Made by a program: the position numbers and the translations under genes
Origin: an uncultured Bacilli bacterium
Lineage (GTDB): Bacteria; Bacillota_I; Bacilli_A; RF39; UBA660
Assembly (NCBI GenBank): GCA_947632405.1
Contig: CANRPE010000010.1
Coordinates: 1-39,006, forward strand
DNA: 39,006 bases
Direction of reading: 5' to 3'
Part shown: positions 1 through 39,006 of the stretch, one piece after another
Position numbering within the stretch: position 1 is the stretch's first letter
Layout: every line of letters starts with the position of its first letter
Notes under the pieces: model-generated
Told to the model about the DNA's origin: nothing
Databases searched by the model: none
The model's input: only the letters and a program-made list of their open reading frames with translations

Positions 1-335
1 TGATATTCGTTTTCTTTGACATAATATTTGATAACTGTTCCTTGTTTACATGTTTTTCCTTTTTTATAACAATCTGTCTTTACACATGTTTTTTCTTCTC
101 CATTTATACATTTTGGATCTTGTTCACTATATTCATAGGCTACTATTGAAGGTTTTAAAAAACTTTTATCATATACTTCGTCTATTGCATCTTGAACATT
201 ATCTGCTATTAATTTAGAATTTTCATTACTATATTCAACATTTATACTTGATATGATAGTTGCCGCATACACTGTTGTTCCTGTCAGTATTGCTCCTAAT
301 ACAAACATAATTAACATTTTTATTCTTTCTTTCAT
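1..335 (-). CDS. Variable surface-protein paralog, copy F (partial, 3' end outside window)
   Basis: Only the first 111 codons are visible; the gene runs off the left edge. The start at 335 is set by an AGGTGAT Shine-Dalgarno in the repeated leader. The protein opens with a short basic stretch and one hydrophobic helix ending TGTTVYA, then ATIISSINV, a NVQDAIDEVYDKS motif and a four-Cys segment beginning at CINGEEKTC. Over the first 33 residues it matches copy B, more than 34 kb away, except that this residue stretch is followed by E rather than G (INVEY versus INVGY). It lies downstream of the GH73 hydrolase gene, so the family is not confined to the array at the right edge. The function is unknown; a membrane-anchored extracytoplasmic protein is inferred. 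Confidence 0.85.
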   Translation of the reverse strand, partial: MKERIKMLIMFVLGAILTGTTVYAATIISSINVEYSNENSKLIADNVQDAIDEVYDKSFLKPSIVAYEYSEQDPKCINGEEKTCVKTDCYKKGKTCKQGTVIKYYVKENEY

Positions 336-367: not shown

Positions 368-398
368 ATTATACCCCCCCCCGTTTACATTTTTGCAA
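368..398 (-). promoter_or_regulatory. Promoter of copy F with G9 spacer tract
   Basis: On the minus strand, -35 TTGCAA (393-398) and -10 TATAAT (368-373) are separated by 19 nt, of which nine (374-382) are consecutive G. A 19-nt spacer is longer than the usual 17, so loss of one or two G could raise promoter strength. Confidence 0.75.
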
Positions 399-3400: not shown

Positions 3401-3899
3401 TACTACTTGCTTTTACCCATGGGAGTGGTACAATTTCATAATTATTTTTTTCTATCCACCCTGTAAAGTTAGCAATTTTTACTTTAGCTGCATAATTATT
3501 TGGATCTATATCTATTAATGCTGCATCTACTCCACCATAAGATGCATTTGTATTTATACCCATGTATTGTCTTGTTGTTAATGATGGTGATTCATAAAAG
3601 TATGTTAATGAGTTTACAGTTAAATCAACTAAAGCATATTTTGCTCCTATAATTTTTACTGTTGATCTTTCATCTAAAATTATTGTATTATCAGAACTAT
3701 AACTATTCATTTTATTTTTTGCTTCTTGATATGTATTATGACAACTAATTGAAGTAATGGAACCATTTGCATTTGCTACAGCGACTTCAAAATTAGGACA
3801 TGTATGTCTATTATCATAAGATGTAGCAGCATAAGTATATTTAGGAAAAATAAATACACCAACAAGAAAAATTATAATATAACTTATTTTTTTTCTCAT
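426..3899 (-). CDS. Secreted GH73-type glucosaminidase with SH3-like and DUF5011 domains
   Basis: A 1157-residue exported cell-wall hydrolase. Residues 1-24 are a signal peptide ending TYAA. A Cys-containing N-terminal region is followed by a glucosaminidase (GH73, LytD/N-acetylglucosaminidase type) region around residues 200-405. The likely catalytic Glu is near 313 in SRNETGNGRS, with the family-typical KNNGFGLDAVD downstream. SH3-like segments follow at about 415-680. Two DUF5011-type Ig-like domains lie near 692-765 and 770-845, each with the EDGDIT/EDGNIT and GNYxVTYxVxDS signatures. The C-terminal 300 residues hold two related beta-rich modules of unknown function, seen from the repeated LxIxGxxxxxG and AWFxxxxDxxxLxxGxYxxYIxTE patterns. 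It should cleave GlcNAc-MurNAc bonds during wall turnover. It has its own extended -10 promoter, divergent from the LCP gene. Confidence 0.85.
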   Translation of the reverse strand: MRKKISYIIIFLVGVFIFPKYTYAATSYDNRHTCPNFEVAVANANGSITSISCHNTYQEAKNKMNSYSSDNTIILDERSTVKIIGAKYALVDLTVNSLTYFYESPSLTTRQYMGINTNASYGGVDAALIDIDPNNYAAKVKIANFTGWIEKNNYEIVPLPWVKASSSYTVTSTEIKHNYITNVKTASSGNIRTIGPKPEMLNEGTYYSYDGHYFYTSLLKMLKDYKNDTFTNSVNNNSAYYNYYMYLSNHTKTTYSSLNIDEYTKSLGYTKNVYGDTAKTGTSRLYGEGPIFYNSQQKYGINAILSYSLSRNETGNGRSNLAINKNNGFGLDAVDSNPYEGASYYATFSSSILGYASKWNSYGYSYATDWRYFGPAFGDKLNGMNVKYATDAYWSEKMASNYYYLDKYFGFNDYNYYQLGVVTKPTEAHFSPNSSSKVIYTYPEKEDQVVIVEEVGNYYKVVSDINIDINGNIVGSKTDYTKPYNWDSSYVYVLKSDIKKINKGKKGYVYPTSVTNYQDSNFNYDLYVEQTTLKPKVAKIINNTAYYQDPTLTSKINKNVLKDKLVMVYAAAYNSNQQIISYLVTSDYFYDQKSWVAANNIQFITSDYGKQKVNLSGQYEWVCSSPIDKENYKISGQYTNSYFPILEEVYNDNAYWYKIPVSLDSNTNSYGYILKTEKNASITKYNYKATNTPPVINVSNKRILQNQKIDLLSIVEAIDNEDGNITSKIKINGTVDTSKIGNYKITYSVTDSGNLTTTKTITIEVVEDKAPVIEASNRTISLNTEFNALYQVKAIDEEDGDITKNIKVIKNTVNSKQLGNYEVTYQVNDSFGHIVTKNIKIEVVEKVKEQREGLFYFNYLKVINNKLQIKGYHAIKGVNHTINSEITYHLIFVNISTKEEYIQPVEKITNKDEFERPVYSNDSYDYTYSWFKANIDINNLPDGDYQAYIVTENSDYIAKTIISNKVLKEQVSTYQDKKVLTTRNNYRDSKIPIEFIIRSEEIAKKTANSTFNSYNQFREFKFEDNKLRIMGTSYSIGMNLSKETNVSRKIIFENTENYKKYKYDIGSITDGLYKVGTTLEDGFDKTRAWFDTKLDLSNMEKGIYAIYISTESNISDYGELTELLFRSLDDVKLEQNGKKYSFKINNNLRYRIELIIE

Positions 3900-7214: not shown

Positions 7215-9298
7215 TTTTTGGCATCCTCCTTATAATTTAATAACTGCTTTTCTTCTTTACTTTTTTGAATTAAATCATAAACAATAACATTGTTAGATAC
7301 ACTAAGTAATTTAGATGCATATTCATTATTTTTCTTAATTTCTTCTTCACTAATAGCACTACCATCTAATGATAAATATTCTTCTTTTTGACTATTATAA
7401 TAAACTGTATTAGTCACCCAATTTCCTGTTGGAAATACTACGATATTATCAGACTTAATATTAAAGATATCATGACCTAATTGATATTTGTTGTAGAAGC
7501 CAAACATATTTCCTAAAGTAGGCATAACATCATACATTCCCATAACATCTTTAACTTCCATATTAAGTTGTGAATCTTTCATATCTTTAGTCCATATAAT
7601 AAATGGAACTTTTCGACCTAATTCGTATTGATATGAATCATATTCTTTGTAATTAGCATCATCTTTATCATACATTTTTTCAGTTTCTTTATTATAGTTA
7701 TATAGATAGTTATAATCACTTCTAGGAAGTCTAGCATCATGATCTCCATATATAACTACAACAGTATTATCTAAGAAACCATTTTTATCTAAATTATCAA
7801 ATAATTCTCCTAAAGCTTCATCTGCATAATGAGCTGATTTAAAGTAATTTCCTAATTTTCTTCCTTCCATATATGGATGTGATATTTCTTCTGTTGTACC
7901 ATCTTCATTAGTAATAGTTTCTTTCATATCAACATCAAATTCACCATATTTTTCAACATCAGAAAATGGTGTATGGTTAGAAAGCATAATCATTACTCCA
8001 TACCATTTATCATGTTTTTGAGTAATCTTTTTTAATTTTTCTACTGATTGTTTGAAAAATTCTTTATCACTAAGACCTAAACCAACAATATCTTCTTTTT
8101 GAACTTTATAAGTTTCTTTACTATAAAATTTATCATATCCTAAATGTTCATACATACTTCTACGATTCCAAAAATCAGCATTATTAGCATGCATACTAAA
8201 TGTATAATAACCTTTTTCATGCATTAATTTTGGAATAGCATTATAAGTTCTATCAAAGTAAGAAACAAAAGCAGTTCCACTTTGAGTTGGCATTAATGAT
8301 GTATTAAATGTAAGTTCCGAATCACTACTAGTACCTACACTAACTTGAGAATAAAAATTAGAAAAATACATTCCTTCTTCAGATAATCTTTTTAAATTTG
8401 GTACAACTGCTTGTCCATTAAACTCTAAATTTAATAAATTATTTTGCATACTTTCAGCATGAATAACTAAGACATTTTTTCCTTCAAAGATATTAGTATA
8501 ATCATTTGTCTTTTCTGGTGTTGAACTAACATTATCATAATATTCTTTAAATTCTTTCATTGCTTGATCATAACCAAATAAAGAATTAATTTTAGGTTGA
8601 ATTGATGTAATTACATCATTAAATTGATAAATAAAAATTCCAAAACGCATAACAATATATTCACGATTCCATTGTTTTGCAAAACGACTTACATCTAGTG
8701 GTGTTAAAGTTACAGTAAATATTACGGCTAAAATACCTGCAGCTGTTAATGTCTTTAGTGTTTTTTTCTTTCGCTCTGTTTTTAATTCAATTTTTTTATA
8801 ATAATTTTGTTTTTTTAATTTATTATGAACTAAAATTAATATAATTGGACCAATAATATAAATTAAATCTTTTAATTGCAAAACATTTTCAACAACTGCA
8901 TCACCCACTGAAGTAATATATTGAGTTAAAGATAACATTGATACAGAAGCAAAAGATGTATAAAACGTGTAATATACTGAATTTATTGTACAGATTGCTG
9001 TAAAAAAGATTTCCCAAATCATATAGTATATAAATCTATTTTTACCTTTGATAAGATAACCAAAGGCACCTACTAATATTAAAATTACAGCATCAGCTAA
9101 TATTGGTTTAATTGCTAAATAATTTTCTAAGGTATGCATTGTAAAAAAACGAAGTAATGTTGAATTTAATAAGCATGTTAAAACAAAAGTAATAAATAAA
9201 ACATTATTATTTATATACTTTTTAATTAAATGTTCTTTTTTTACCTTTTTACAAAATTTAACTATTTTTTCTTTATAATTATGTATTTTCTTTTTCAT
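7211..9298 (-). CDS. LtaS-like membrane sulfatase (glycerol-phosphate polymerase family)
   Basis: A 695-residue protein with five N-terminal membrane helices (about residues 30-230) and an extracellular sulfatase-fold domain. Family hallmarks are visible: the nucleophile Thr in SVGTSSDSELTF near residue 323, MHANNADFWNR with the substrate-site His, and GDHDARLPRSDY near 520 with metal-binding Asp-His. LtaS enzymes polymerise glycerol phosphate from phosphatidylglycerol onto a lipid anchor outside the cell. The longer ORF begins with a TTG at 9352, but that TTG is the first base of a near-perfect promoter, so translation must begin at the ATG at 9298 (MKKKIHN), preceded by GATGAGG. It is co-transcribed with the small gene overlapping its 3' end. 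Confidence 0.9.
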   Translation of the reverse strand: MKKKIHNYKEKIVKFCKKVKKEHLIKKYINNNVLFITFVLTCLLNSTLLRFFTMHTLENYLAIKPILADAVILILVGAFGYLIKGKNRFIYYMIWEIFFTAICTINSVYYTFYTSFASVSMLSLTQYITSVGDAVVENVLQLKDLIYIIGPIILILVHNKLKKQNYYKKIELKTERKKKTLKTLTAAGILAVIFTVTLTPLDVSRFAKQWNREYIVMRFGIFIYQFNDVITSIQPKINSLFGYDQAMKEFKEYYDNVSSTPEKTNDYTNIFEGKNVLVIHAESMQNNLLNLEFNGQAVVPNLKRLSEEGMYFSNFYSQVSVGTSSDSELTFNTSLMPTQSGTAFVSYFDRTYNAIPKLMHEKGYYTFSMHANNADFWNRRSMYEHLGYDKFYSKETYKVQKEDIVGLGLSDKEFFKQSVEKLKKITQKHDKWYGVMIMLSNHTPFSDVEKYGEFDVDMKETITNEDGTTEEISHPYMEGRKLGNYFKSAHYADEALGELFDNLDKNGFLDNTVVVIYGDHDARLPRSDYNYLYNYNKETEKMYDKDDANYKEYDSYQYELGRKVPFIIWTKDMKDSQLNMEVKDVMGMYDVMPTLGNMFGFYNKYQLGHDIFNIKSDNIVVFPTGNWVTNTVYYNSQKEEYLSLDGSAISEEEIKKNNEYASKLLSVSNNVIVYDLIQKSKEEKQLLNYKEDAKK

Positions 9299-9323
9299 TT
9301 TAACTCTAACCTCATCTTTTAAT

Positions 9324-9352
9324 ATTATAACACTATTCACCTCAGTTTTCAA
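9324..9352 (-). promoter_or_regulatory. Promoter of LtaS-like operon
   Basis: Minus strand TTGAAA (9347-9352), exactly 17 nt, TATAAT (9324-9329). It lies inside the in-frame extension of the ORF, which rules out the upstream TTG start. Confidence 0.85.
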
Positions 9353-9390
9353 TCACTTACACATTAAAACTTTAATCGATTAGTAGTTAT

Positions 9391-9418
9391 AAAAAATAAA
9401 AATTCCATATAGGAATTT
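9391..9418 (-). terminator. Terminator of giant surface-protein gene
   Basis: Minus strand AAATTCC-TATAT-GGAATTT followed by a T-rich run (9391-9400), beginning seven bases past the stop codon. Confidence 0.8.
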
Positions 9419-9424
9419 CTATTC

Positions 9425-12400
9425 TTAACTAATAAGTCGATTTAATGCGTCAATTGCACATTGTACATCAGTACATTTATTACCACTACTATCTGTTAAT
9501 CCTGTAGCAGTATTATCATAGCCTAACTCTGCAGCTATAGCAATTCTTGATTTAGCTGTATATGATGCATCGGCTTTTAAAGTGATTTTAGCATTTGCTT
9601 GGGCATCAGGATTATTTCCTGAATTAGTTGAAATAAACCATCCTAGCACTACATAACCTTCTGAAGCTGTTATTGATGGTGCTGTTATATCACATTCTGT
9701 AGATTGTACTTTACCACCATTGCCATTCCTTATTTCATCTATAGTACATGATTGCTTTTGAGAACCAATTTGTTTAATATTTGCTCCTGCTGTAAATGTT
9801 GCTGATCTAGTTACAGCTGCTTTATATGTTTGTGCATAATAATCATCAGAAGCACTAACTGTTTTTTCAAAATTACTTGCCCAATCATTTTCATATCTAG
9901 TACTTCCTGTAGAATAACCTCTTACGGTTGGAGTTGCATCTGTTCCTTTTATCGTTGGTGATTTTATATTACAAGAATCTGTTAAATTATAAACAGTACA
10001 ACTTTCTGTTACTTTTTCTTCTGTTGATGCAGCTTTTCCATTTGGAGTTTGACTAGCTGCTCCATTCAAATGGAAAGTAATTGTTATATTCTTTTTATAA
10101 ATTGCATATAAAGTAACATCTGTTGTTCCCATATTCATAGGTTGCATAGCTTTAGTCTCATCAGGATTAGTATTCCAACCAACAAATGTATAACCAGCTC
10201 TAGGAGTAGCAACTGGAGTTAAACTAATTGGATCATTATAATTTACAGTTGCAGTTTTAACTGTAGAATCTGTTCCACCATTTCTTTCATAATTATATGT
10301 AACTGTATGTGAATCTATCTGCCATCTTGCATATAAACTTAATTTATTATTAGCAATACCTTTTTGTCCATTTATAAAAGTCCATGTTCCTGAGAAATTA
10401 GTCCATCCAAAGCTATCATCATTACCATTTGCATCAGTTGTCCAGCCTTTATATGTATGACCTGTTTTTGTGAAAGTATTACTTGCTACTGTAAATTCTT
10501 GACCATACGTTGCTGTTTGAGAATCAATACTTCCTTCTCCACCATTATTATTATATGAAACTGTATAAGTAGTAGCCTTAGCTTTAGCAACATAATCTTT
10601 ACTTTGTGAAATTGATATAGTTTGTTCCGCATCACCAACATGTGATTCATCTTCATACCAACCTAAGACATCATATCCAGTTTCAGCAGTAATTGTTGGT
10701 AAATTAATATTACAACTTAAACTACTTCCTTCTGTTACACAGCTATCTTGATTTTTTCCAATGTTAGATATATTGCTTCCACTTGTATATCTAACAGTAT
10801 ATGTTTTTCCATTTACAGTTATATTTTCACTAGTTTGTCCTTTATTTAGATTATTATCATTATCTTTTATAACGTCTGCATTTAAACTTACAGTAAATGT
10901 TCCAACAGATAAACCTTTAACTGTAACAGTATATTTAAATCCTTTTGAAATAGCAACTGGATTTTCAACATTTGTTACTTCTCCATTTTCAGAAGATACT
11001 GTAAAATCAGTATTTGATAAATTTTGACTAGCTACTCCACTTCCTAAATCTGTACAAGATAAAGTTAAAGTAGTCGTATCACCTGTTGTAATAGGAACTG
11101 GACTTGTCCAACTACATACAGGTGCTGTTTGGTCTTTCCAAACTGCATACAAAGATATATTTCCACCATCTTCAGTAACAAAATCAGTTACAGTATCACC
11201 ATTTGAATATTTTTTATCAGAACCATTTTCAGTAGACCATCCAGTAAATGTATAACCTTCTTTACTAAAATCCATACTTTCTGCTGTTTGCAATTTTACA
11301 GATTGTCCTACTGTTGCTTGCTGACTAGATTTTAACTCAGTATCATCATAATAATTAATTGTATAAGTATTTCCAGTTAAAGCTCTAGCATAATAAGTAG
11401 CAACTGAACTAGAAACTTCTTCTTCTGAAGAAATACCACTTTCTGCAAGTTCACTATCACCCCAAAATCCATTTTTATAACCTGTTTCTTCATAGATTTT
11501 TGGTGATTTTACTGAACAATTATCAGCTTGTTCCTCACCATTATGAGTAGCTTCTATAGTACATTTTACTGTGATTTTATCATCTGTATCATTAACTATT
11601 TTTGAATCATTTTCTATTTTTGATACATGTGAATTTTTACCTATTTTAAAATCAACGCTTTTTTCTGTAGCTTTATGCATAGTTTGAGCATAGTAATCAC
11701 CATTAGAACTAACGTTTTGTTTAGCACCACTTTCCCATGTACTAATATAGTCATCACTTGAAGTTGAATATCCTATTACATCAGGTGTTTCATCACTTCC
11801 TACAATTACAGGAGCAGTAATATCACATCCTTTAGCTTGTTCTTCCCCATTATAACTTGGCTCTATATTACATTTTTTAGTAACTACTTCTTCAGCTTCT
11901 CCATCCAAAGTCTTTGCATTATTTAAATGGAATCTTACTTCTATTTCTTTAATATCTTGTTTTGTAATAGCATAGTAATTTTTATCAGATTTCAATGTTA
12001 ATTCTTCTTCTGCTCCAATACTTGCAGAAATAGCTTCAGCATCTTCACTAAATCCTAAGACATTTGGAGTAAGGTCACTTGCTTGAATAGAAGGAGTTGT
12101 TATACTACACTCTGTTTCTGGTGGTTCATTATTAAATACTTCTTTTAGCTTACATGTTTTTACTACTGGATCTATGTCTTGATTATCTAATGAAGTTGCT
12201 CCATTCTTATAAAATTTAGCTGTTAAAGTAACTTCTTTTTTCTTACTAATTGAATAAAAAGTAGTAATTTCTTTAGTTAAAGTTATTTCATCACCTGGAG
12301 CAATTCCTGTTTTTTCATCTTCTTCCTCATTCCAACCAATAGCAACATATCCATCTTTTACATCAATAGTTGGAGCAGTAACTTTACAATATTCTGCTTG

Positions 12401-14968
12401 AGAATTTCCATTATAAGTTGCCTTGATTACACAATTTAATGTCTTATCACCTATTCCTGTTACTCCTAAACCACTTTGTTCAAAATTTGCTGTTTTTGTA
12501 ACATCTTCATTTGTTGTAATTGCATAATATGTACCATTTGTTGTTACTGTTTTCACAGTATCTTGTGCCCAACTACTTTCTTTAGCATCTGCTTGTTCAT
12601 TATATCCTAAAACATTTGGGGTTGCTTCACTTGGAGTAATAACTGGTGATTTTACTGAACAATTAGCTTCATCATTATAAATATTACAGTTTCTTTCTAC
12701 ATTTTCTTCTACTTCTATTCCTGCTTCATTAGTTTGTTTAATAGCACCATTTAATTCAAATTTAATTTTAATTGGTTTAGCACTAATTGAATAGAATACT
12801 GTATTATCACTAATATCAACTTGCGTACCTATCTCATGACCATCATGAGCTTCTTTATTTTCATTCCAACCAATAGCATTATATCCCTCTGATACAATAA
12901 TATTTGGAAGTGTTACTTTACATTTTCCTGTATCATCTATAATTTCACAAGTTTCTCTATCTTTTTCAGAACGAATAACTCCACTACCATTTTTAGTAAA
13001 ATATGCTGTAATTGTTTTAACAACTGTTACTTCTACTTCTTGTTTGATTCCTTTATTTGATTCAGTTACACTAATAGTAGCAACTCCAGGAGATACAGCT
13101 TTTACAACACCAGTAGTTGTAACTGTTGCTACAGCTCCATTATTAGAATCATAACTAATTGTACCTAAATTTTCTCCTGTTACTTCAATTTGTTCTTCTG
13201 TTTTACCATTAATATCTAGTTTTATTTGCTTATTACTTATATTCATTTCTACAACTTGAATACTTTCTGATGTTACTTCATCATTTAAGTTTCCAGCAAA
13301 GTCACTAATTTTATTACTTAGTAATTTTAAAGTAAAGGTTCCAGCTTTATTTGCTTTTACTACAATTGGATATTGATATCCATCTTGAACTTTTACTGCT
13401 TCTTTAATTTCTTTTATACTACCAGTATCATTACTAATTTCTATATCTTTAGTTGTAATACTGTTAATAGCAATATCAGCAGGATCTGTACAAGTTAAAT
13501 TAATTTGTTTTTCTTCATTTACTTCTAGATAACCACCATCTTCAAATCTACAAGTTGGTTTTGTTTGATCAATATTTGATACTGTTATTTCTTCACTTTT
13601 TTCATTACCTTCACTATCTTTAATAAAGATATAGTATGTTCCATTTTTTACAATTGTTTCTTCATTATAATATGAGCCTGTAAATTCTTCAAGAGGACTC
13701 ATTTCTTTGTACTCATCTTCATTTGGTTTTTCATTAGTTGTTTTTATAGCGTAAAATACTTTATCAGATGTTGTTGTTGCTGAAATTTTAATTTTACTAT
13801 TAATATTTTTATTTTCTTCTTGAGTAACTGATATTTCTAATGATTCTTTTTTATTAACAATTACTTGTCTAGTATCACTAGCAGTATTACCACTAGAATC
13901 TTCTACTAAATATTTTATAATATATGTTCCTGCTACTTTTTCATTTACTGTTCCAATAACAACTACTTTAGAAGTTAAATCACCATCTTCTACATCTGAT
14001 GCATCATAGCCAGGTTCTTCATATTCTTGACCATATTCTAATGTAATAATACGATTTCCTCTTAAACTAATAGTTGGATTATTAGTATCAGTCTTATAAA
14101 CATTTACTACTCTTGTTGCAACACCCTTATTTCCTTTACTATCTGAAATTTCATAATATATGTAATAAATTCCAGCTTTATTTGTATCAATTTTATCTAC
14201 AGTTTCAGTTGTACTACCATTGTAATACTCATATTTTTTTTGAACATTTTCTATTTTTAAATCTTCACTAGAATCGATTGAACTAACTCCAGCATCAACG
14301 TATTCACTACCTAATTCTACTTTAACAACACTTTCTCCTTGTAGTTTAATAATTGGATTTGTTGTTACAATTGGAGTAGCATTAGATTGTACTGTATCTA
14401 CAACAATTTTAGCACTATAGCTTTGGCCTTGAACCTCATTAGGGGCATCTTCTTTTAGCCACATTTTAATTTGATATGTAATATCTTTTTCACTTTCTAG
14501 AATTCTATCTTCTACTAAAACTAAACCACTTGATAGTAATGTAGGTTCACTCCACTCACCATCGCCTTCTTTAATAGAATACTTAATATTTTCTTTATTT
14601 AAAGTATTTCCATCTTTTTCTTCCAAACTAATTGTATATTTTCCATCTAATGTACCAACATTATGAATATTGAAAGTATATGGAACAGTCTTTAATCCTT
14701 CTTCATTACTAAGAGGAACTGCTTTACTTAAATTAATTACATTATTATCTTTATACTCTATTTCTAAAGTACCAGAAACTATTTCAACTTTTTTATGACC
14801 ATTAGCCACAGTTGAAAATAATGCATAACTTCCTCCTATTGTTATTATCAAAAGAAAAATTGCTAATGTAATTATTTTAGCATATTGTCTTTTATTTTGT
14901 TTTTTTAATGATTCATGAGAAATTTTTACTTTTCTAAAACGATTTCCTATCTTACCTTTTTTCCCCAT
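9425..14968 (-). CDS. Giant repeat-built surface protein (DUF5011, BIG2, two-Cys and InlB-type repeats)
   Basis: A 1847-residue exported protein. After a basic start there is a membrane-anchor or signal segment near 30-50 ending GGSYALFSTVANG, followed by a TasA/SipW-substrate-like beta domain. Two DUF5011-type domains (about 200-380), Ig-like modules and a BIG2-like domain (LDINGKTEE...SPGVATISVTE) follow. Nine repeats of about 75-95 residues then occur, each with a Cys pair (such as KTCKL..ECSITTPSI), a GWNE/GYS turn and a closing YYAI/FYSI. They are interrupted by an Ig-like module and three InlB/Flg_new-type repeats (GYTFTGWSTENG, GHTYKGWTTD, GYTFVGWNT). The C-terminus is CTDVQCAIDALNRLIS, with no LPXTG. 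An adhesin or stalk role is inferred. The ORF extends to a GTG at 14989, but the ATG at 14968 has AAAGGTG upstream and fits the promoter. Confidence 0.85.
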   Translation of the reverse strand: MGKKGKIGNRFRKVKISHESLKKQNKRQYAKIITLAIFLLIITIGGSYALFSTVANGHKKVEIVSGTLEIEYKDNNVINLSKAVPLSNEEGLKTVPYTFNIHNVGTLDGKYTISLEEKDGNTLNKENIKYSIKEGDGEWSEPTLLSSGLVLVEDRILESEKDITYQIKMWLKEDAPNEVQGQSYSAKIVVDTVQSNATPIVTTNPIIKLQGESVVKVELGSEYVDAGVSSIDSSEDLKIENVQKKYEYYNGSTTETVDKIDTNKAGIYYIYYEISDSKGNKGVATRVVNVYKTDTNNPTISLRGNRIITLEYGQEYEEPGYDASDVEDGDLTSKVVVIGTVNEKVAGTYIIKYLVEDSSGNTASDTRQVIVNKKESLEISVTQEENKNINSKIKISATTTSDKVFYAIKTTNEKPNEDEYKEMSPLEEFTGSYYNEETIVKNGTYYIFIKDSEGNEKSEEITVSNIDQTKPTCRFEDGGYLEVNEEKQINLTCTDPADIAINSITTKDIEISNDTGSIKEIKEAVKVQDGYQYPIVVKANKAGTFTLKLLSNKISDFAGNLNDEVTSESIQVVEMNISNKQIKLDINGKTEEQIEVTGENLGTISYDSNNGAVATVTTTGVVKAVSPGVATISVTESNKGIKQEVEVTVVKTITAYFTKNGSGVIRSEKDRETCEIIDDTGKCKVTLPNIIVSEGYNAIGWNENKEAHDGHEIGTQVDISDNTVFYSISAKPIKIKFELNGAIKQTNEAGIEVEENVERNCNIYNDEANCSVKSPVITPSEATPNVLGYNEQADAKESSWAQDTVKTVTTNGTYYAITTNEDVTKTANFEQSGLGVTGIGDKTLNCVIKATYNGNSQAEYCKVTAPTIDVKDGYVAIGWNEEEDEKTGIAPGDEITLTKEITTFYSISKKKEVTLTAKFYKNGATSLDNQDIDPVVKTCKLKEVFNNEPPETECSITTPSIQASDLTPNVLGFSEDAEAISASIGAEEELTLKSDKNYYAITKQDIKEIEVRFHLNNAKTLDGEAEEVVTKKCNIEPSYNGEEQAKGCDITAPVIVGSDETPDVIGYSTSSDDYISTWESGAKQNVSSNGDYYAQTMHKATEKSVDFKIGKNSHVSKIENDSKIVNDTDDKITVKCTIEATHNGEEQADNCSVKSPKIYEETGYKNGFWGDSELAESGISSEEEVSSSVATYYARALTGNTYTINYYDDTELKSSQQATVGQSVKLQTAESMDFSKEGYTFTGWSTENGSDKKYSNGDTVTDFVTEDGGNISLYAVWKDQTAPVCSWTSPVPITTGDTTTLTLSCTDLGSGVASQNLSNTDFTVSSENGEVTNVENPVAISKGFKYTVTVKGLSVGTFTVSLNADVIKDNDNNLNKGQTSENITVNGKTYTVRYTSGSNISNIGKNQDSCVTEGSSLSCNINLPTITAETGYDVLGWYEDESHVGDAEQTISISQSKDYVAKAKATTYTVSYNNNGGEGSIDSQTATYGQEFTVASNTFTKTGHTYKGWTTDANGNDDSFGWTNFSGTWTFINGQKGIANNKLSLYARWQIDSHTVTYNYERNGGTDSTVKTATVNYNDPISLTPVATPRAGYTFVGWNTNPDETKAMQPMNMGTTDVTLYAIYKKNITITFHLNGAASQTPNGKAASTEEKVTESCTVYNLTDSCNIKSPTIKGTDATPTVRGYSTGSTRYENDWASNFEKTVSASDDYYAQTYKAAVTRSATFTAGANIKQIGSQKQSCTIDEIRNGNGGKVQSTECDITAPSITASEGYVVLGWFISTNSGNNPDAQANAKITLKADASYTAKSRIAIAAELGYDNTATGLTDSSGNKCTDVQCAIDALNRLIS

Positions 14969-15006
14969 TACAACCAGCACCTTTCGCACCTTAATATACT
15001 ACTATA

Positions 15007-33722: not shown

Positions 33723-34730
33723 TTATTTTTTAGTAATTTCAACAACAGCACGAGCACCAAAACTAGTAGTAGTAGTGCCGCCGGTGTAGTTGTGCAAATG
33801 ACCTGCACGATGCACATACCACGCATCAGTAGTGTTACGAGAGAAAGCCGACATAGTCCAATATTCATAGTCATATACTCCATTTTCATTTACTGTATTA
33901 TTATTATAACTTCCTCCACAATCTGTAGATTGCCATAAGTAATTATGCATCCAATCTGGACAGGATCCTCTATTATATGCATCTATACTAGGTAGAATAA
34001 TATTAGGATATTTTTCTCCATCTTTGTATACCAGACAACCTGTTGATGAAGCTTCAAGTGCTGTTATCATTCTTGCTCGTGCTTTTCTTGTTCCTAAGAC
34101 TGTACTTGTATATGTGTTCTTCTCACATCTTATTTTATAATCTCCTGAAGTACCTTCATTATATGTACAACCTGTGTAAGCATTTTCATATAATGTGGTT
34201 ACTCCAGGTTCATATTCTAGTACATTTACATTTACCCACGTTGAAGTTGCTGCTTCTAATTGTGGTAAGATTGTATCTGGTCCTTTACTATTATCATTTA
34301 CTCCTGCATGCCATGCTATATTTCTTATTGTATTTTCTCTTTGTTGCATTGTTATTGTTGTTCCATTGTCATGTAATACATAGAAATAATAGAATTCATG
34401 ATTATTAACATAATACTTTATAACTGTTCCTTGTTTACATGTTTGCCCTTTTTTATAACAATCTGTTTTTACACATGTCTTTTCTTCACCGTTTATACAT
34501 TTATTTGGTTCTTGTTCATGATATTCATATGCAGTTATTAATTCTTTATTAAAACTTTTATCATATACTTCATCTATTGCTTCTTGAACATTATCTGCTA
34601 CTAGTTTTGAATTTTCATTACTATAACCAACATTTATACTTGATATTATAGTTGCGGCATATACTGTTGTTCCTGCTATTAAAAATCCTATTATTATTCC
34701 TACTATCAATTTATAATTTTTCTTTATCAT
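33723..34730 (-). CDS. Variable surface-protein paralog A
   Basis: A 335-residue protein. Residues 5-27 are a hydrophobic helix ending TTVYA; then ATIISSINVGY, DNVQEAIDEVYDKS (about 45-58) and a Cys-rich segment (CINGEEKTC..DCYKKGQTC, about 78-97). A conserved beta-rich body includes ITMQQRENTIRNIAWHAG, STWVNVNVLEY and ARARMITALEAS. The C-terminus has YWTMSA, a variable stretch of 30 residues (296-325) with AWYV and GHL anchors, and GARAVVEITKK. I do not recognise a named family for the body; the C-terminal pattern resembles FGE/C-type-lectin-fold modules. Extracytoplasmic display by an uncleaved signal anchor is inferred. It is the last copy of the tandem array and ends at its own terminator. 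Confidence 0.85.
   Translation of the reverse strand: MIKKNYKLIVGIIIGFLIAGTTVYAATIISSINVGYSNENSKLVADNVQEAIDEVYDKSFNKELITAYEYHEQEPNKCINGEEKTCVKTDCYKKGQTCKQGTVIKYYVNNHEFYYFYVLHDNGTTITMQQRENTIRNIAWHAGVNDNSKGPDTILPQLEAATSTWVNVNVLEYEPGVTTLYENAYTGCTYNEGTSGDYKIRCEKNTYTSTVLGTRKARARMITALEASSTGCLVYKDGEKYPNIILPSIDAYNRGSCPDWMHNYLWQSTDCGGSYNNNTVNENGVYDYEYWTMSAFSRNTTDAWYVHRAGHLHNYTGGTTTTSFGARAVVEITKK
33756..33845 (-). other. Hypervariable 3' region of copy A
   Basis: Thirty codons between YWTMSA and ARAVVE. Twenty-five end in C or T, and 43 of 90 bases are G or C, in a genome where coding sequence is strongly A/T-rich with many NNA codons. The non-NNY codons are mostly the fixed anchors (GCG TGG, GTG, TTG). 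Confidence 0.7.
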
Positions 34731-34762
34731 CCTAGATCACCTATTTTTATTTATCTAAGATT

Positions 34763-34793
34763 ATTATACCCCCCCCCGTTTATATTTTTGCAA
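34763..34793 (-). promoter_or_regulatory. Promoter of copy A with G9 spacer tract
   Basis: TTGCAA (34788-34793), 19-nt spacer with G9 (34769-34777), TATAAT (34763-34768). Confidence 0.75.
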
Positions 34794-34794
34794 G

Positions 34795-34816
34795 AAAAAA
34801 TTACACCGAAGTGCAA
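34795..34816 (-). terminator. TTCG-loop terminator after copy B
   Basis: Minus strand TTGCAC-TTCG-GTGTAA then T6; the stem has one mismatched pair relative to the perfect copies. Confidence 0.6.
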
Positions 34817-34817
34817 T

Positions 34818-35747
34818 TTATGATTTGGTTATTTCAACAACAGCACGACCACCATATCTATTTATATTAGCTTCAATTTTGTCAACATACATGACTCCAT
34901 TTGCTCTAATATGAACAGCAATGCCAGAAGAAATCGTCATAGTATAATAACCAAGATAAGCTTGATAATCATTAACTGTTCCCTCATAAGTCATTGACCT
35001 TTGTAAATAATTATATAACCATATTGGACATGTTGGGATATTAGTACCATCACTAAATTTGCAACCTAATATTGTAGCCTCTTGAACTGTAATCATTCTT
35101 ACATTTACTTCTTTTTTATCTAATTCATAGATATTAATATTACAGTTAGAATAAAAACAACCTGAATAACCTAATGTTGAATTTTCTCTCCCTATTGAAT
35201 AATTAAATTTATTTACATTTGTCCAAGTTGAAGTTTTATTTTCTAGAATATTTAATACGTTATTTATATTCGTATTACTATCTTCATTTAAATTCCATGG
35301 TATATTATATTCAATATTTTTTTGACTTTGTAATGTTAATTTTTCTCCATCATCATGCACTACATGAAATCTTATTTTTTCTTTTTCATTTACCATATAT
35401 TCTACTATTGTTCCTGGTGAACAACTTCCTTCTGTATTATTTAAATAACAAGTATTAACTTTACATGTTTTTTCATCGCCTGTTACACAAAAGTCTTCTG
35501 ATTCCTTATTTTCATCATAATAATACATTGCTTTTATATTTTCATTTTTTGGTTGAGGAGCTTTACTTTCACTAGCTTTTTTATACACTTCATCTATTGC
35601 ATCTTGAACATTAGTTGCTACTAGTTTTGAACTTGCATTATTATATCCAACATTTATACTTGATATTATAGTTGCTGCGTATACTGTTGTTCCTGTCAGT
35701 ATTGCTCCTAATACAAACATAATTAACATTTTTATTCTTTCTTTCAT
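34818..35747 (-). CDS. Divergent variable surface-protein paralog B
   Basis: A 309-residue family member that keeps the N-terminal helix (matching copy F over the first 33 residues), ATIISSINVGY, NVQDAIDEVY, a four-Cys segment (CVTGDEKTC..TCYLNNTEGSC) and the GGRAVVEITKS end, but is strongly diverged in between. The anchor before the variable part is GYYTMT rather than YWTMSA and the AW.V anchor is absent. It is much less similar to A, C, D and E than they are to each other, although it sits between A and C and has the same promoter cassette. It may have a different partner, or be an older copy outside the exchange among the others. Confidence 0.82.
   Translation of the reverse strand: MKERIKMLIMFVLGAILTGTTVYAATIISSINVGYNNASSKLVATNVQDAIDEVYKKASESKAPQPKNENIKAMYYYDENKESEDFCVTGDEKTCKVNTCYLNNTEGSCSPGTIVEYMVNEKEKIRFHVVHDDGEKLTLQSQKNIEYNIPWNLNEDSNTNINNVLNILENKTSTWTNVNKFNYSIGRENSTLGYSGCFYSNCNINIYELDKKEVNVRMITVQEATILGCKFSDGTNIPTCPIWLYNYLQRSMTYEGTVNDYQAYLGYYTMTISSGIAVHIRANGVMYVDKIEANINRYGGRAVVEITKS
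34851..34934 (-). other. 3' region of copy B matching the hypervariable position
   Basis: Twenty-eight codons between TMT and GRAVVE. NNA codons (AGA, GCA, GGA, AAA, GAA, ATA) are common here, unlike in A, C, D and E, so this copy shows little of the NNY signature. Confidence 0.5.
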
Positions 35748-35778
35748 CTTAGATCACCTATTTTATTTATCTAAGATT

Positions 35779-35809
35779 ATTATACCCCCCCCCGTTTATA
35801 TTTTTGCAA
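35779..35809 (-). promoter_or_regulatory. Promoter of copy B with G9 spacer tract
   Basis: TTGCAA (35804-35809), 19-nt spacer with G9 (35785-35793), TATAAT (35779-35784). Confidence 0.75.
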
Positions 35810-35810
35810 G

Positions 35811-35833
35811 AAAAAAATTACACCGAAGTGTAA
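35811..35833 (-). terminator. TTCG-loop terminator after copy C
   Basis: Minus strand TTACAC-TTCG-GTGTAA (35818-35833) followed by T7. Confidence 0.75.
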
Positions 35834-35834
35834 T

Positions 35835-36824
35835 TTAGGGTTTGTTTATTTCTACGACGGCACGCGCACCATCGGCATTAGTAGTAGTATTACCAGTGTT
35901 GTCTAGGTAACCGGAATTAAGTACACGCCACGCAAAAGTAACGATGTCAAAATTAGCTGACATAGTCCAATAACCACCATCATATACTCCATTTTCATTT
36001 ACTATATCGCTATTATAATTTCCTCCATAACTTGTAGATTGATATAAGTAGTTATACATCCATCTTGGGCAGGAACCCCGATTATTTGCATCTATACTTG
36101 GTGGTATAATATTAGGATTTATTTTTTCATCTTTCCATACTAAGCATCCTGTTGCTGAAGCTTCTAATGCTGTGATCATTCTGGCTCGTGCTTTTCTTGT
36201 TCCTAATACTGAATTTGTATAGGTATTTGTTTCGCACTTTATTTTATAATCAGCTGTATATGTACAACCTGTGTAAGCATTGTCATATAATGTGGTTACT
36301 CCAAGTTCATATTCTAGTACATTTACATTTACCCATGTTGAAGTTGCTGCTTCTAATTGTGGTAATATTGTATCTGGTCCTTTACTGTTATTATTTTCTC
36401 CTGCATGCCATGCTATATTCCTTATTGTATTTTCTCTTTGTTGCATGGTTATCTTTATTCCATCATCTCTTAGTACATAAAAATAATGAAATTCACTATC
36501 ATTTACATAATACTTTATAACTGTTCCTTGTTCACATGTTTTACCTTTTTTATAACAATCTGTTTTTACACAGTTTTTTTCTTCGCCATTTATACATTTT
36601 GGATCTTGTTCACTATATTCATAAGCAGCTATTGGAGTTTTTGAAAAACTTTTATCATATACTTCGTCTATTGCATCTTGAACATTATCTGCTATTAGTT
36701 TTGAATTTTCATTACTATAACCAACATTTATACTTGATATTATAGTTGCCGCATATACTGTTGTTCCTGTTAATATTGCTCCTATTATTATTCCTAACAT
36801 AAATTTATAATTTTTCTTTAGCAT
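35835..36824 (-). CDS. Variable surface-protein paralog C
   Basis: A 329-residue family member. Its first residues (MLKKNYKFMLGIIIG) resemble copy A, while the segment after the helix (KSFSKTPIAAYEYSEQ) is like copy E, and its body again matches A (KGPDTILPQLEAATSTWVNV). One of the Cys-segment residues differs (EEKNC). The variable part (residues 291-319) reads as unrelated residues around AW.V and G.L anchors, ending GARAVVEINKP. It is transcribed from its own G9-spacer promoter, 87 bp downstream of copy D. Confidence 0.85.
   Translation of the reverse strand: MLKKNYKFMLGIIIGAILTGTTVYAATIISSINVGYSNENSKLIADNVQDAIDEVYDKSFSKTPIAAYEYSEQDPKCINGEEKNCVKTDCYKKGKTCEQGTVIKYYVNDSEFHYFYVLRDDGIKITMQQRENTIRNIAWHAGENNNSKGPDTILPQLEAATSTWVNVNVLEYELGVTTLYDNAYTGCTYTADYKIKCETNTYTNSVLGTRKARARMITALEASATGCLVWKDEKINPNIIPPSIDANNRGSCPRWMYNYLYQSTSYGGNYNSDIVNENGVYDGGYWTMSANFDIVTFAWRVLNSGYLDNTGNTTTNADGARAVVEINKP
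35868..35954 (-). other. Hypervariable 3' region of copy C
   Basis: Twenty-nine codons, 25 ending in C or T; the exceptions are the anchor codons GCG, TGG, GTA and CTA. Residues between the anchors share almost nothing with copies A, D or E. Confidence 0.7.
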
Positions 36825-36856
36825 CCTAGATCACCTATTTTTATTTATCTAAAATT

Positions 36857-36887
36857 ATTATACCCCCCCCCGTTTATATTTTTGCAA
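36857..36887 (-). promoter_or_regulatory. Promoter of copy C with G9 spacer tract
   Basis: TTGCAA (36882-36887), 19-nt spacer with G9 (36863-36871), TATAAT (36857-36862). Confidence 0.75.
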
Positions 36888-36889
36888 GA

Positions 36890-36910
36890 AAAATTTACAC
36901 CGAAGTGCAA
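36890..36910 (-). terminator. TTCG-loop terminator after copy D
   Basis: Minus strand TTGCAC-TTCG-GTGTAA (36895-36910) followed by AATTTTT; one stem mismatch and a shorter T-run make it weaker than the C and E copies. Confidence 0.55.
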
Positions 36911-36911
36911 T

Positions 36912-37901
36912 TTATGGCTTGGTTATTTCTACTACTGCTCGTGCTCCTTGGTTAATATCAACAGTTCCATGAACGTCGTACAAGTGACCCCCACGGTCAA
37001 CAATCCACGCAACAATAGTGTTATTTGAGTCAGCCGACATGGTCCAATAATTATAATCATATTTTCCATCCTCGTTTACTGTATCGTTATTATAACTTCC
37101 TCCCCAATTTTTTGATTGATATAGATAATTATACATCCAGTCTGGACAGGAACCATTATTATAAGCACTTATGCTTGGTGGAATAACATTACTATCTTTT
37201 GAACCATCTTTCCATACTAAACAACCTGCTGCTGAGGCTTCTAATGCTGTTATCATTCTGGCACGTGCTTTTCTTGTTCCTAATACCGAACTTGTATATG
37301 TGTTCTTTTCGCATCTTATTTTATAGTCTTCTGTTGTTGAACAACCTGTATTTGCATTTTCATATAATGTTGTTACTCCAGGTTCATATTCTAGTACATT
37401 TACATTTACCCAAGTTGAAGTTGCTTTTTCTAAGACTGGTAATACTGTATCTGGTCCTTTGCTGTTATCATTTGCTCCTGCATGCCATGCTATATTCCTT
37501 ATGGTATTTTCTCTTTGTTGCATGGTTATCTTTGTGCCATCATCATGTAATACATAGAAATAATGAAATTCACTATCATTTACATAGTACTTTATTACTG
37601 TTCCTTGTTTACATGTTTTTCCTTTTTTATAACAATCTGTTTTTACGCATGTTTTTTCTTCGCCATTTATACATTTTGGATCTTGTTCACTATATTCATA
37701 CGCTGTTATTAATTCTTTATTAAAACTTTTATCATACACTTCGTCTATTGCTTCTTGAACATTATTAGCTACTAACTTGGAGTTTTCATTATTATACTCT
37801 ACATTTATACTTGATATGATAGTTGCTGCATATACTCCAATTCCTCCTAGAGTTATTCCTCCTAATACAAAAATAATTAACATTTTTATTCTTTCTTTCA
37901 T
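36912..37901 (-). CDS. Variable surface-protein paralog D
   Basis: A 329-residue family member whose N-terminal helix is like B and F (MKERIKMLIIFVLG) but whose next segment (KSFNKELITAYEY) is the A type. It keeps the four-Cys segment, the ITMQQRENTIRNIAWHAG body and ARARMITALEAS. The variable part (residues 291-319) includes AWIV, GGHLYD and an ending GARAVVEITKP. Four extra bases in its leader put the SD AGGTGAGTGAT slightly farther from the ATG than in the other copies. Confidence 0.85.
   Translation of the reverse strand: MKERIKMLIIFVLGGITLGGIGVYAATIISSINVEYNNENSKLVANNVQEAIDEVYDKSFNKELITAYEYSEQDPKCINGEEKTCVKTDCYKKGKTCKQGTVIKYYVNDSEFHYFYVLHDDGTKITMQQRENTIRNIAWHAGANDNSKGPDTVLPVLEKATSTWVNVNVLEYEPGVTTLYENANTGCSTTEDYKIRCEKNTYTSSVLGTRKARARMITALEASAAGCLVWKDGSKDSNVIPPSISAYNNGSCPDWMYNYLYQSKNWGGSYNNDTVNEDGKYDYNYWTMSADSNNTIVAWIVDRGGHLYDVHGTVDINQGARAVVEITKP
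36945..37031 (-). other. Hypervariable 3' region of copy D
   Basis: Twenty-nine codons, 21 ending in C or T, with 38 of 87 bases G or C. Third positions in the following ARAVVE segment are all A here but T, G or C in other copies. Confidence 0.7.
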
Positions 37902-37937
37902 CTTAGATCACTCACCTATTTTTATTTATCTAAGATT

Positions 37938-37968
37938 ATTATACCCCCCCCCGTTTGTATTTTTGCAA
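37938..37968 (-). promoter_or_regulatory. Promoter of copy D with G9 spacer tract
   Basis: TTGCAA (37963-37968), 19-nt spacer with G9 (37944-37952), TATAAT (37938-37943). Confidence 0.75.
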
Positions 37969-37970
37969 GA

Positions 37971-37991
37971 AAAATTTACACCGAAGTGTAA
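37971..37991 (-). terminator. TTCG-loop terminator after copy E
   Basis: Minus strand TTACAC-TTCG-GTGTAA (37976-37991), perfect stem, followed by AATTTTT. Confidence 0.65.
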
Positions 37992-37992
37992 T

Positions 37993-38937
37993 TTATGATT
38001 TTGTTATTTCGACAACTGCTCGCGCACCATTGTGATTTTCAGTAATACTGAAGTAGTCGTTACCATAGCCTATACTACCACTAGTACTTACATACCATGC
38101 CTTAACAGGATTACTAGAGATAGCTGACATGGTCCAATAATGATAATCATATACTCCATTTTCATTTACTGTATCATTATTATAACTACCACCATAGTTT
38201 TTTGATAGATTTAAGTAATTATGCATCCAGTCTGGACAGGAACCTTCTTTATTTACTGAACAACCTGTTGATGATGCTTCTAATACTGTTATCATTCTGG
38301 CTCTTGCCTTTCTTTTTCCTAGGATTGAACTTGTATATGTATTTGTATCACATGTTATTTTATAATCTTCTGTTGTTGAACAACCTGTGTAGGCATTTTC
38401 ATATAATGTTGTTACTCCAGGTTCATATTCTATAACATTTACATTTACCCAAGTGGATGTTGCTTGCTCTAAGGCTGGTAAAACAGTGGTTGGTCCTTTA
38501 CTATTATCTTTTTCTCCTGCATGCCATGGTATATTTCTTATTGTATTTTCTCTTTGTTGCATCGTTATTGTTGTTCCATCATCTCTTAGTACATAAAAAT
38601 AATGAAATTCACTATCATTTACATAATACTTTATAACTGTTCCTTGTTTACATGTTTTTCCTTTTTTATAACAATCTGTTTTTACACATGTCTTTTCTTC
38701 GCCATTTATACATTTTGGATCTTCTTCACTATATTCATAAGCAGCTATTGGAGTTTTTGAAAAACTTTTATCATATACTTCATCTATGGCATCTTGAACA
38801 TTATCAGCTACTAACTTGGAACTTTCATTACTATATCCGACATTTATACTTGAGATTATGGTTGCTGCGTATACTGTTGTTCCAGTTAGTATTACACCCA
38901 ATATAAAAGCTACTATTATTTTTATTTTCTCTTTCAT
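37993..38937 (-). CDS. Variable surface-protein paralog E
   Basis: A 314-residue family member, shorter because it lacks about 20 residues between the last Cys-containing anchor (STGCSVNKEGSCPDWMHNYL) and the preceding helix. Its N-terminus (MKEKIKIIVAFILGV) is distinct, the next segment (KSFSKTPIAAYEYSEE) is shared with C, and the TGCSTTEDYK segment is shared with D. The variable part (residues 273-304) is the longest, with an inserted stretch before HNGARAVVEITKS. It is the most upstream visible gene of the array; its promoter lies at the right edge and another family member may follow outside. Confidence 0.85.
   Translation of the reverse strand: MKEKIKIIVAFILGVILTGTTVYAATIISSINVGYSNESSKLVADNVQDAIDEVYDKSFSKTPIAAYEYSEEDPKCINGEEKTCVKTDCYKKGKTCKQGTVIKYYVNDSEFHYFYVLRDDGTTITMQQRENTIRNIPWHAGEKDNSKGPTTVLPALEQATSTWVNVNVIEYEPGVTTLYENAYTGCSTTEDYKITCDTNTYTSSILGKRKARARMITVLEASSTGCSVNKEGSCPDWMHNYLNLSKNYGGSYNNDTVNENGVYDYHYWTMSAISSNPVKAWYVSTSGSIGYGNDYFSITENHNGARAVVEITKS
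38026..38121 (-). other. Hypervariable 3' region of copy E
   Basis: Thirty-two codons, 26 ending in C or T. Length differs from the other copies by three codons, so insertion or deletion as well as substitution has occurred. Confidence 0.7.
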
Positions 38938-39006
38938 CCTAGATCACCTATTTTTATTTATCTAAGATTATTATACCCCCCCCCGTTTGTATTTTTGCAA
39001 GAAAAA
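38938..39006 (-). repeat. Promoter cassette repeat upstream of E (cut by window edge)
   Basis: Leader, TATAAT, G9, TTGCAA and the start of the A/T run are present; the expected TTCG-loop hairpin lies beyond the edge. Its presence predicts another gene ending just outside the window. Confidence 0.8.
38970..39000 (-). promoter_or_regulatory. Promoter of copy E with G9 spacer tract
   Basis: TTGCAA (38995-39000), 19-nt spacer with G9 (38976-38984), TATAAT (38970-38975). Confidence 0.75.

Follow-up and report, generated by a model that had tools for sequence, protein, structure and literature searches.

We analyzed a 39,006-base window (26% G+C) on contig C10 of a draft genome from an uncultured Bacilli bacterium (G000; 1.35 Mb in 54 contigs, 96.5% complete, 2.8% contamination). 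Five tandem genes on the minus strand, here called A–E, span exactly positions 33,723–38,937 (Table 1). Of these, A, C, D, and E each end in a hypervariable C terminus, very probably the variable repeat (VR) of a diversity-generating retroelement (DGR) that works in trans from another contig. Copies A, C, D, and E have 73%–78% residue identity to the reference copy and are nearly unrelated between the anchors YWTMS and GARAVV; copy B lost these anchors and reads as a divergent paralogue. The initial annotation had described these variable ends between fixed anchors as rich in NNY codons (N, any base; Y, C or T) and raised in G+C, and all of this held on recounting. NNY codons make up 24/29 of the hypervariable core in A, 24/28 in C, 21/28 in D, and 25/31 in E, and 33–41 of its 84–93 bases are G or C, compared with a fraction of ∼0.30 in the gene bodies; our counts are slightly off the earlier ones because the ends of the core were drawn differently. 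Genome-wide, across 67 genes with a VR, codons ending in C or T account for 76% of the VR stretch and 44% of the gene bodies. The VRs of the window genes lie at the 3′ end of the target, stopping 12–18 bases before the stop codon.

A profile search of the genome returned a single Pfam RVT_1 reverse transcriptase (RT). It is on contig C3, in a locus that reads target, target, template repeat (TR), MSL, Avd, RT, target, target. The RT matches PHROG 1423 (8.6e-83), and its best PDB match by sequence is 8ub7 ("Reverse transcriptase"), which we take to be the RT of the BPP-1 DGR. The MSL and Avd genes overlap or adjoin the RT gene. Avd scored 43.8 bits against PF22296 (cutoff 40) and was under the NCBIfam cutoff, and the MutS_I domain (PF01624) found in the other accessory is the Pfam family of the known DGR accessory MSL (PMC10053308). 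The core sequence features of a DGR are all present: an RT with the IGNMTSQ motif (general form (I/V/L)GxxxSQ), an accessory gene, a noncoding TR, and VRs that differ from it at adenines and sit at the 3′ end of their genes. The initial annotation had proposed a DGR and had held against it that RT, Avd, and template are missing from the window. None of the three occurs within the 39,006 bases and all are on contig C3 of the same genome, where the whole-genome search placed both items that the initial annotation had asked for, a DGR-type RT and an A-rich TR of ∼90–130 bp with AAC/AAT codons.

The TR (TCGGCTAAC...GTCGTA) has 105 bases and 34 adenines, nearly all in AAC, AAT, ACT, and GAA codons, a design that permits ∼1e19 protein variants per VR and zero stop codons. 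When searched against the genome, it gave one self-match and then VRs on many contigs; no second TR was found in the assembly. The target family comprises about 75 related genes on 24 contigs, of which 67 have an anchored VR that could be aligned to the TR. In two of these VRs (C25:1148 and C3:15507), 19 and 18 of the 34 adenines were changed along with 0/71 other bases. The freshest class (11 VRs with five or fewer non-A differences) differed at 189/374 A sites and 32/781 other sites (p=5.4e-76). In the classes with 6–12 and 13–20 non-A differences, the A-site rate was still near 50%, and other sites differed at 11% and 26%; the A excess remained strong in the latter class (p=2e-32) and was weak in the 19 oldest VRs (p=7e-6). 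Among VRs with 12 or fewer non-A differences, the excess of A sites over others was 0.41, and the maximum of 20,000 column permutations was 0.19, which excludes chance. Change also depended on context, reaching 58%–67% at the first A of AAC/AAT and 23% at the A in ACT; this agrees with the preference for AAC of the BPP-1 system in E. coli (PMC12875486). When VRs were tested singly with correction, 21 of 67 were significant; in the window, gene A was clear, and C, D, and E were nominal. By this measure at least 21 genes count as certain targets, with 67 the number that have a template-alignable VR, and the window copies are middle-aged to old, gene A alone being individually strong.

This footprint bears on the possibility, raised in the initial annotation, of ordinary diversifying selection; in a fuller form, such selection would act on a family of surface genes whose tandem copies recombine, with no retroelement involved. 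The family is indeed tandem and surface-like, and its old VRs, with many non-A differences and their weak A excess, could be read in this way. However, the genome has an A-rich template along with RT, Avd, and MSL, and the fresh VRs change almost solely at template adenines, in two cases without a single change elsewhere. Protein-level selection is blind to which base of a distant noncoding sequence is an A. Selection is thereby refuted for the fresh VRs, and we regard it as highly improbable as an account of the variable ends in general.

A G+C-rich 3′ stretch (GGTGCGCGTGCCGTCGT), a candidate counterpart of the initiation of mutagenic homing (IMH) site, is common to the TR and the freshest VRs, and its silent positions vary in other VRs. 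We also considered a shared 3′ hairpin as a homing signal and rejected it: the hairpin and T run that follow many targets resemble an ordinary terminator, and several of the freshest VRs have none behind them.

Table 1. Positions of the variable family, its promoters, and the DGR cassette (window coordinates unless prefixed G000:C3 or C3; G000 is the window's own genome)
Feature	Location	Strand	Description
Target gene A	33723..34730	-	335 aa; open reading frame; DGR-diversified C terminus; 78% identity to copy D
VR of gene A	33741..33851	-	TR alignment: 18/34 A sites, 7/71 other sites differ; p=3.3e-6
Promoter of gene A	34763..34778	-	Poly-G (G9) abutting TATAAT; TTGCAA 19 bp upstream
Copy B	34818..35747	-	Divergent paralogue, 49% identity; without recognizable VR
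Poly-G promoter of copy B	35779..35794	-	
Target gene C	35835..36824	-	329 aa
VR of gene C (old)	35853..35960	-	18/34 A, 16/71 other sites differ; nominal p=0.002
Poly-G promoter of gene C	36857..36872	-	
Target gene D	36912..37901	-	329 aa
VR of gene D (old)	36930..37037	-	16/34 A, 15/71 other sites differ; nominal p=0.007
Poly-G promoter of gene D	37938..37953	-	
Target gene E	37993..38937	-	314 aa
VR of gene E (old)	38011..38127	-	17/34 A, 15/71 other sites differ; nominal p=0.003
Poly-G promoter of gene E	38970..38985	-	
Sixth family member, 5′ part	3..335	-	Truncated by contig end; VR unassembled; 85% identity to copy D, residues 1-112
Poly-G promoter of sixth family member	368..383		
TR	G000:C3:16751-16855		105 bases, noncoding, between target and MSL; ~1.1 kb upstream of RT
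MSL	about C3:17196-17621		141 aa; MutS domain I (PF01624), 2.4e-8
Avd	about C3:17614-17958		114 aa; PF22296 and PHROG "Avd protein of DGR"
RT	G000:C3:17921-19051		377 aa; DGR motif IGNMTSQ and YMDD

VRs at every stage of aging coexist in the family. The eight freshest still have C at 9/9 AAC third positions; older VRs have progressively more T at these positions, up to 9/9, in a graded series accompanied by other AT-ward changes. Non-A differences are dominated by C>T, G>A, and C>A. Third positions differ at 0.7% in the freshest class and at 14% and 33% in the older classes, where they are the most changed positions, as expected for synonymous drift. The initial annotation had seen the mixture of C and T at third positions as something one template could not explain. 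This obstacle disappears: the TR itself contains both AAC and AAT/ACT codons, and because C is lost to T gradually after homing, a second template is not needed to account for the mixture. We nevertheless retain, as an unlikely rival, the broader suggestion that several templates existed, now or in the past, and that old VRs derive from a lost or diverged TR. Older VRs often have A/T where the TR has G/C (for example, at TR positions 13–14), VR lengths vary by multiples of 3, and Treponema denticola populations hold several TR types (PMC4891356); yet one TR alone is found in the assembled genome, third-position C is lost smoothly with age and not in two groups, and the differences run AT-ward, as drift predicts. 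The fresh VRs are all distinct, and duplication of already finished genes therefore does not account for their spread: even the closest pair of VRs with 12 or fewer non-A differences agrees at 20/33 A sites (mean 12.6). Gene pairs with 94%–95% identical bodies have VRs and 3′ ends that are just 77%–87% identical.

Seven contigs carry fresh VRs, which differ in their A patterns; counting every VR with up to 12 non-A differences raises the number to nineteen contigs. From this dispersal we infer that the DGR acts in trans, one cassette serving many places. It may, however, now serve the freshest 11–21 targets only, with the rest, including C, D, and E of the window, forming a frozen or decaying library of selected binding variants; we see this as an evenly balanced question. 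The wide spread of VR ages would fit such a library, as would two related genomes, G017 (same genus) and G104 (same family), which keep 11 and 23 target-family matches and gave no RVT_1 hit. The C termini of their family members resemble old VRs (NNY 0.64–0.66 vs. 0.46–0.49), matching T. denticola, in which strains carry two to eight DGR targets and those that have lost the RT retain old ones (PMC4891356). Apparently, either the DGR was lost from G017 and G104 and the repertoire retained, or the assemblies are incomplete. What speaks against a frozen library is that fresh VRs are found in many arrays, often adjoining old ones (e.g., on C25, C13, and C38); with such frequent neighbors, a sequence barrier to homing is not evident.

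The nearest relative of the RT (55% identity) is in L061 (SVAS01000002.1, from an uncultured Bacillota), which has the same MSL-Avd-RT set and a homologous target domain; in that genome, about ten additional TR matches are scattered over several contigs. Among 145 genomes of the bacterial family, an RT relative is present in 62, and the target family in a handful. A search of viral contigs returned only three distant relatives of the RT (29%–36% identity), and so these scans give no sign that the element is phage-borne; the target alignment and the L061 target found no relatives in viral contigs. Another DGR of the bacterial family (L177 of G079; 2-1246 and 2558-2634) has its VR mid-frame near the N-terminal side (GARPALTF) and not at the 3′ end.

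In the targets, a hydrophobic N-terminal segment is followed by a Cys-rich middle and a hypervariable C-terminal tip, a layout by which they are probably surface-exposed; the L061 target has a prepilin-type N terminus. Searches of the target proteins against Pfam, NCBIfam, and PHROG gave no real match. Relatives gave weak DUF6273 and Lcl_C matches, which fit the lectin-like domains usual for DGR targets. AlphaFold models built from 5 and 7 sequences reached a predicted local distance difference test (pLDDT) score of 37 and 54, and a Foldseek search with the latter model found nothing significant, with weak C-type-lectin and DUF6273 names only. For the C-type-lectin or FGE fold suggested in the initial annotation, there are thus weak hints but no confirmation. 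We infer a lectin-like, ligand-binding role; the variable tips likely bind variable host, phage, or neighbor surfaces, or serve in escape from such surfaces. Two other large surface-type proteins are encoded in the window, one of 1854 aa with Ig-like and List_Bact_rpt repeats (9425-14989) and one of 1157 aa that combines a glucosaminidase domain with Ig-like repeats (426-3899).

Nearly all family genes with upstream sequence are preceded by TTGCAA, 10 nt, G9, and TATAAT, giving a 19-bp spacer. Searching the whole genome for this pattern yielded 75 sites (G9 in 73 and G8 in two), compared with one for the reversed pattern. Several sites are at contig ends, and the copies in the genome must therefore exceed the assembled number. 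In the genomes G017, G079, and G011, TTGACA is followed by a run of G9–G12 that lies in the spacer between different flanks; most poly-G sites of G017 and G079 are directly upstream of family genes. Meningococcal porA is known to be switched by a poly-G spacer of variable length (PMC3899988), and we lean toward the view that the promoters described here are phase-variable too. That the tract is instead a fixed recognition motif is a real possibility, though somewhat short of even. The tract has exactly nine Gs in almost every copy, unlike the broad range of repeat numbers at vlhA promoters of Mycoplasma gallisepticum (PMC6258824). On the other hand, relatives have 9, 10, 11, or 12 Gs in the same spacer, altering the distance between −35 and −10, and a short-read assembly gives one consensus tract length per locus.

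The two G8 promoters are at C3:15484-15498 and C36:13129-13143; the former drives C3:15507, which has one of the two freshest VRs and adjoins the cassette. The family N terminus and poly-G promoter also occur in paralogues of ∼404 aa (L045, on G000:C39, at 114-1328, 7804-9015, and 9100-10311; and G000:C8:23381-24601). These have another C terminus, with a match to the GLUG motif and ending in ...NNKNGGNPILKWESR, and no VR; they may supply the expression cassette with a second type of effector end.

If the variable ends are VRs of a DGR working in trans, the C3 cassette would make TR RNA, which RT and Avd would copy with errors at adenines. The mutagenized cDNA would then replace homologous 3′ ends across ∼70 dispersed paralogues, the window genes included, and a VR no longer overwritten would decay toward A+T. 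Each target is its own transcription unit, and slippage at the spacer poly-G may switch single variants. Combined, these steps would amount to antigenic variation by two mechanisms: the DGR hypermutates the tips of ∼70 surface proteins (5%–6% of the 1.35-Mb genome), poly-G slippage selects the variants displayed, and the cell samples an old, selected repertoire together with a fresh one. We offer this combined scheme tentatively, at just under an even chance. Several points weigh against the account of a DGR working in trans. The evidence is a draft assembly, in which present-day activity and homing in trans are presumptive. Given the 2.8% contamination, co-binned strains could have contributed some copies as alleles, a worry tempered by the 69 of 75 copies that lie on contigs with two or more copies. 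Individually, 46 of 67 VRs are nonsignificant, with C, D, and E in the window nominal, and some of the VR genes are therefore likely ex-targets. The fold of the target domain was not established by model or fold search. As for the promoters, the uniform G9 in 73 of 75 urges caution on phase variation.

A published DGR usually has one target or a few; in this very small genome, a single RT and a single template mark dozens of genes. Moreover, since third-position decay dates the VRs, the frequency and location of homing become measurable within one genome, for instance in relation to target orientation, which matters in a DGR system reconstituted in E. coli (PMC12875486). A full-text literature search for DGRs and phase variation together found no paper coupling both; if the poly-G promoters do switch, this would be, to our knowledge, the first case of phase variation acting on a DGR repertoire. 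What appears to be new is the scale of the target set and the type of promoter, the element being otherwise a DGR. In the open-licence literature, the largest well-supported target sets of single genomes have 15–18 loci, shared by two to nine DGRs, although a larger case may exist. Dozens of TR-VR pairs have been reported for a single TR (PMC6642488), but these are atypical sets with non-A substitutions, and we did not take them as precedent.

Among known systems, other DGRs offer close parallels. L061 resembles our system in its MSL-Avd-RT set, homologous target domain, shared anchor layout, and dispersed TR matches; it differs in having the TR downstream from the RT, a prepilin-type target N terminus, and far fewer targets. 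The T. denticola DGR (TvpA and paralogues) likewise has one RT, one TR, and dispersed surface-protein targets with 3′ VRs, but its two to eight targets compare with 21 certain and 67 possible ones here, its accessory is of the HRDC type in place of MSL and Avd, and no poly-G promoters have been reported. Remote paralogous targets, whose existence DiGReF had already noted, are also known from Trichodesmium erythraeum (18 loci for two DGRs) and other cyanobacteria (the count for cyanobacteria is 121 targets over 21 genomes), and from Thiohalocapsa PB-PSB1 (15 targets for nine DGRs), and action in trans is the best explanation there as well (PMC8867640, PMC7517822, PMC10907252); in these systems, however, the targets are signaling or conflict proteins and not a tandem surface family. 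The DGR of Bordetella phage BPP-1 shares the RT, Avd, TR, A-specific mutagenesis, and AAC context, but acts on a single phage target, compared with a chromosomal multigene family in our genome. The promoters have their own counterparts. The porA promoter of Neisseria meningitidis has poly-G in the −35/−10 spacer (PMC3899988) but serves one gene, whereas ∼75 near-identical promoters, with putative switching, precede DGR targets here. The vlhA genes of M. gallisepticum form a similarly large family of variable surface proteins with near-identical, repeat-bearing promoters (PMC6258824); there, GAA repeats lie upstream of the promoter and no retroelement is involved, whereas here a homopolymer in the spacer is combined with a DGR.

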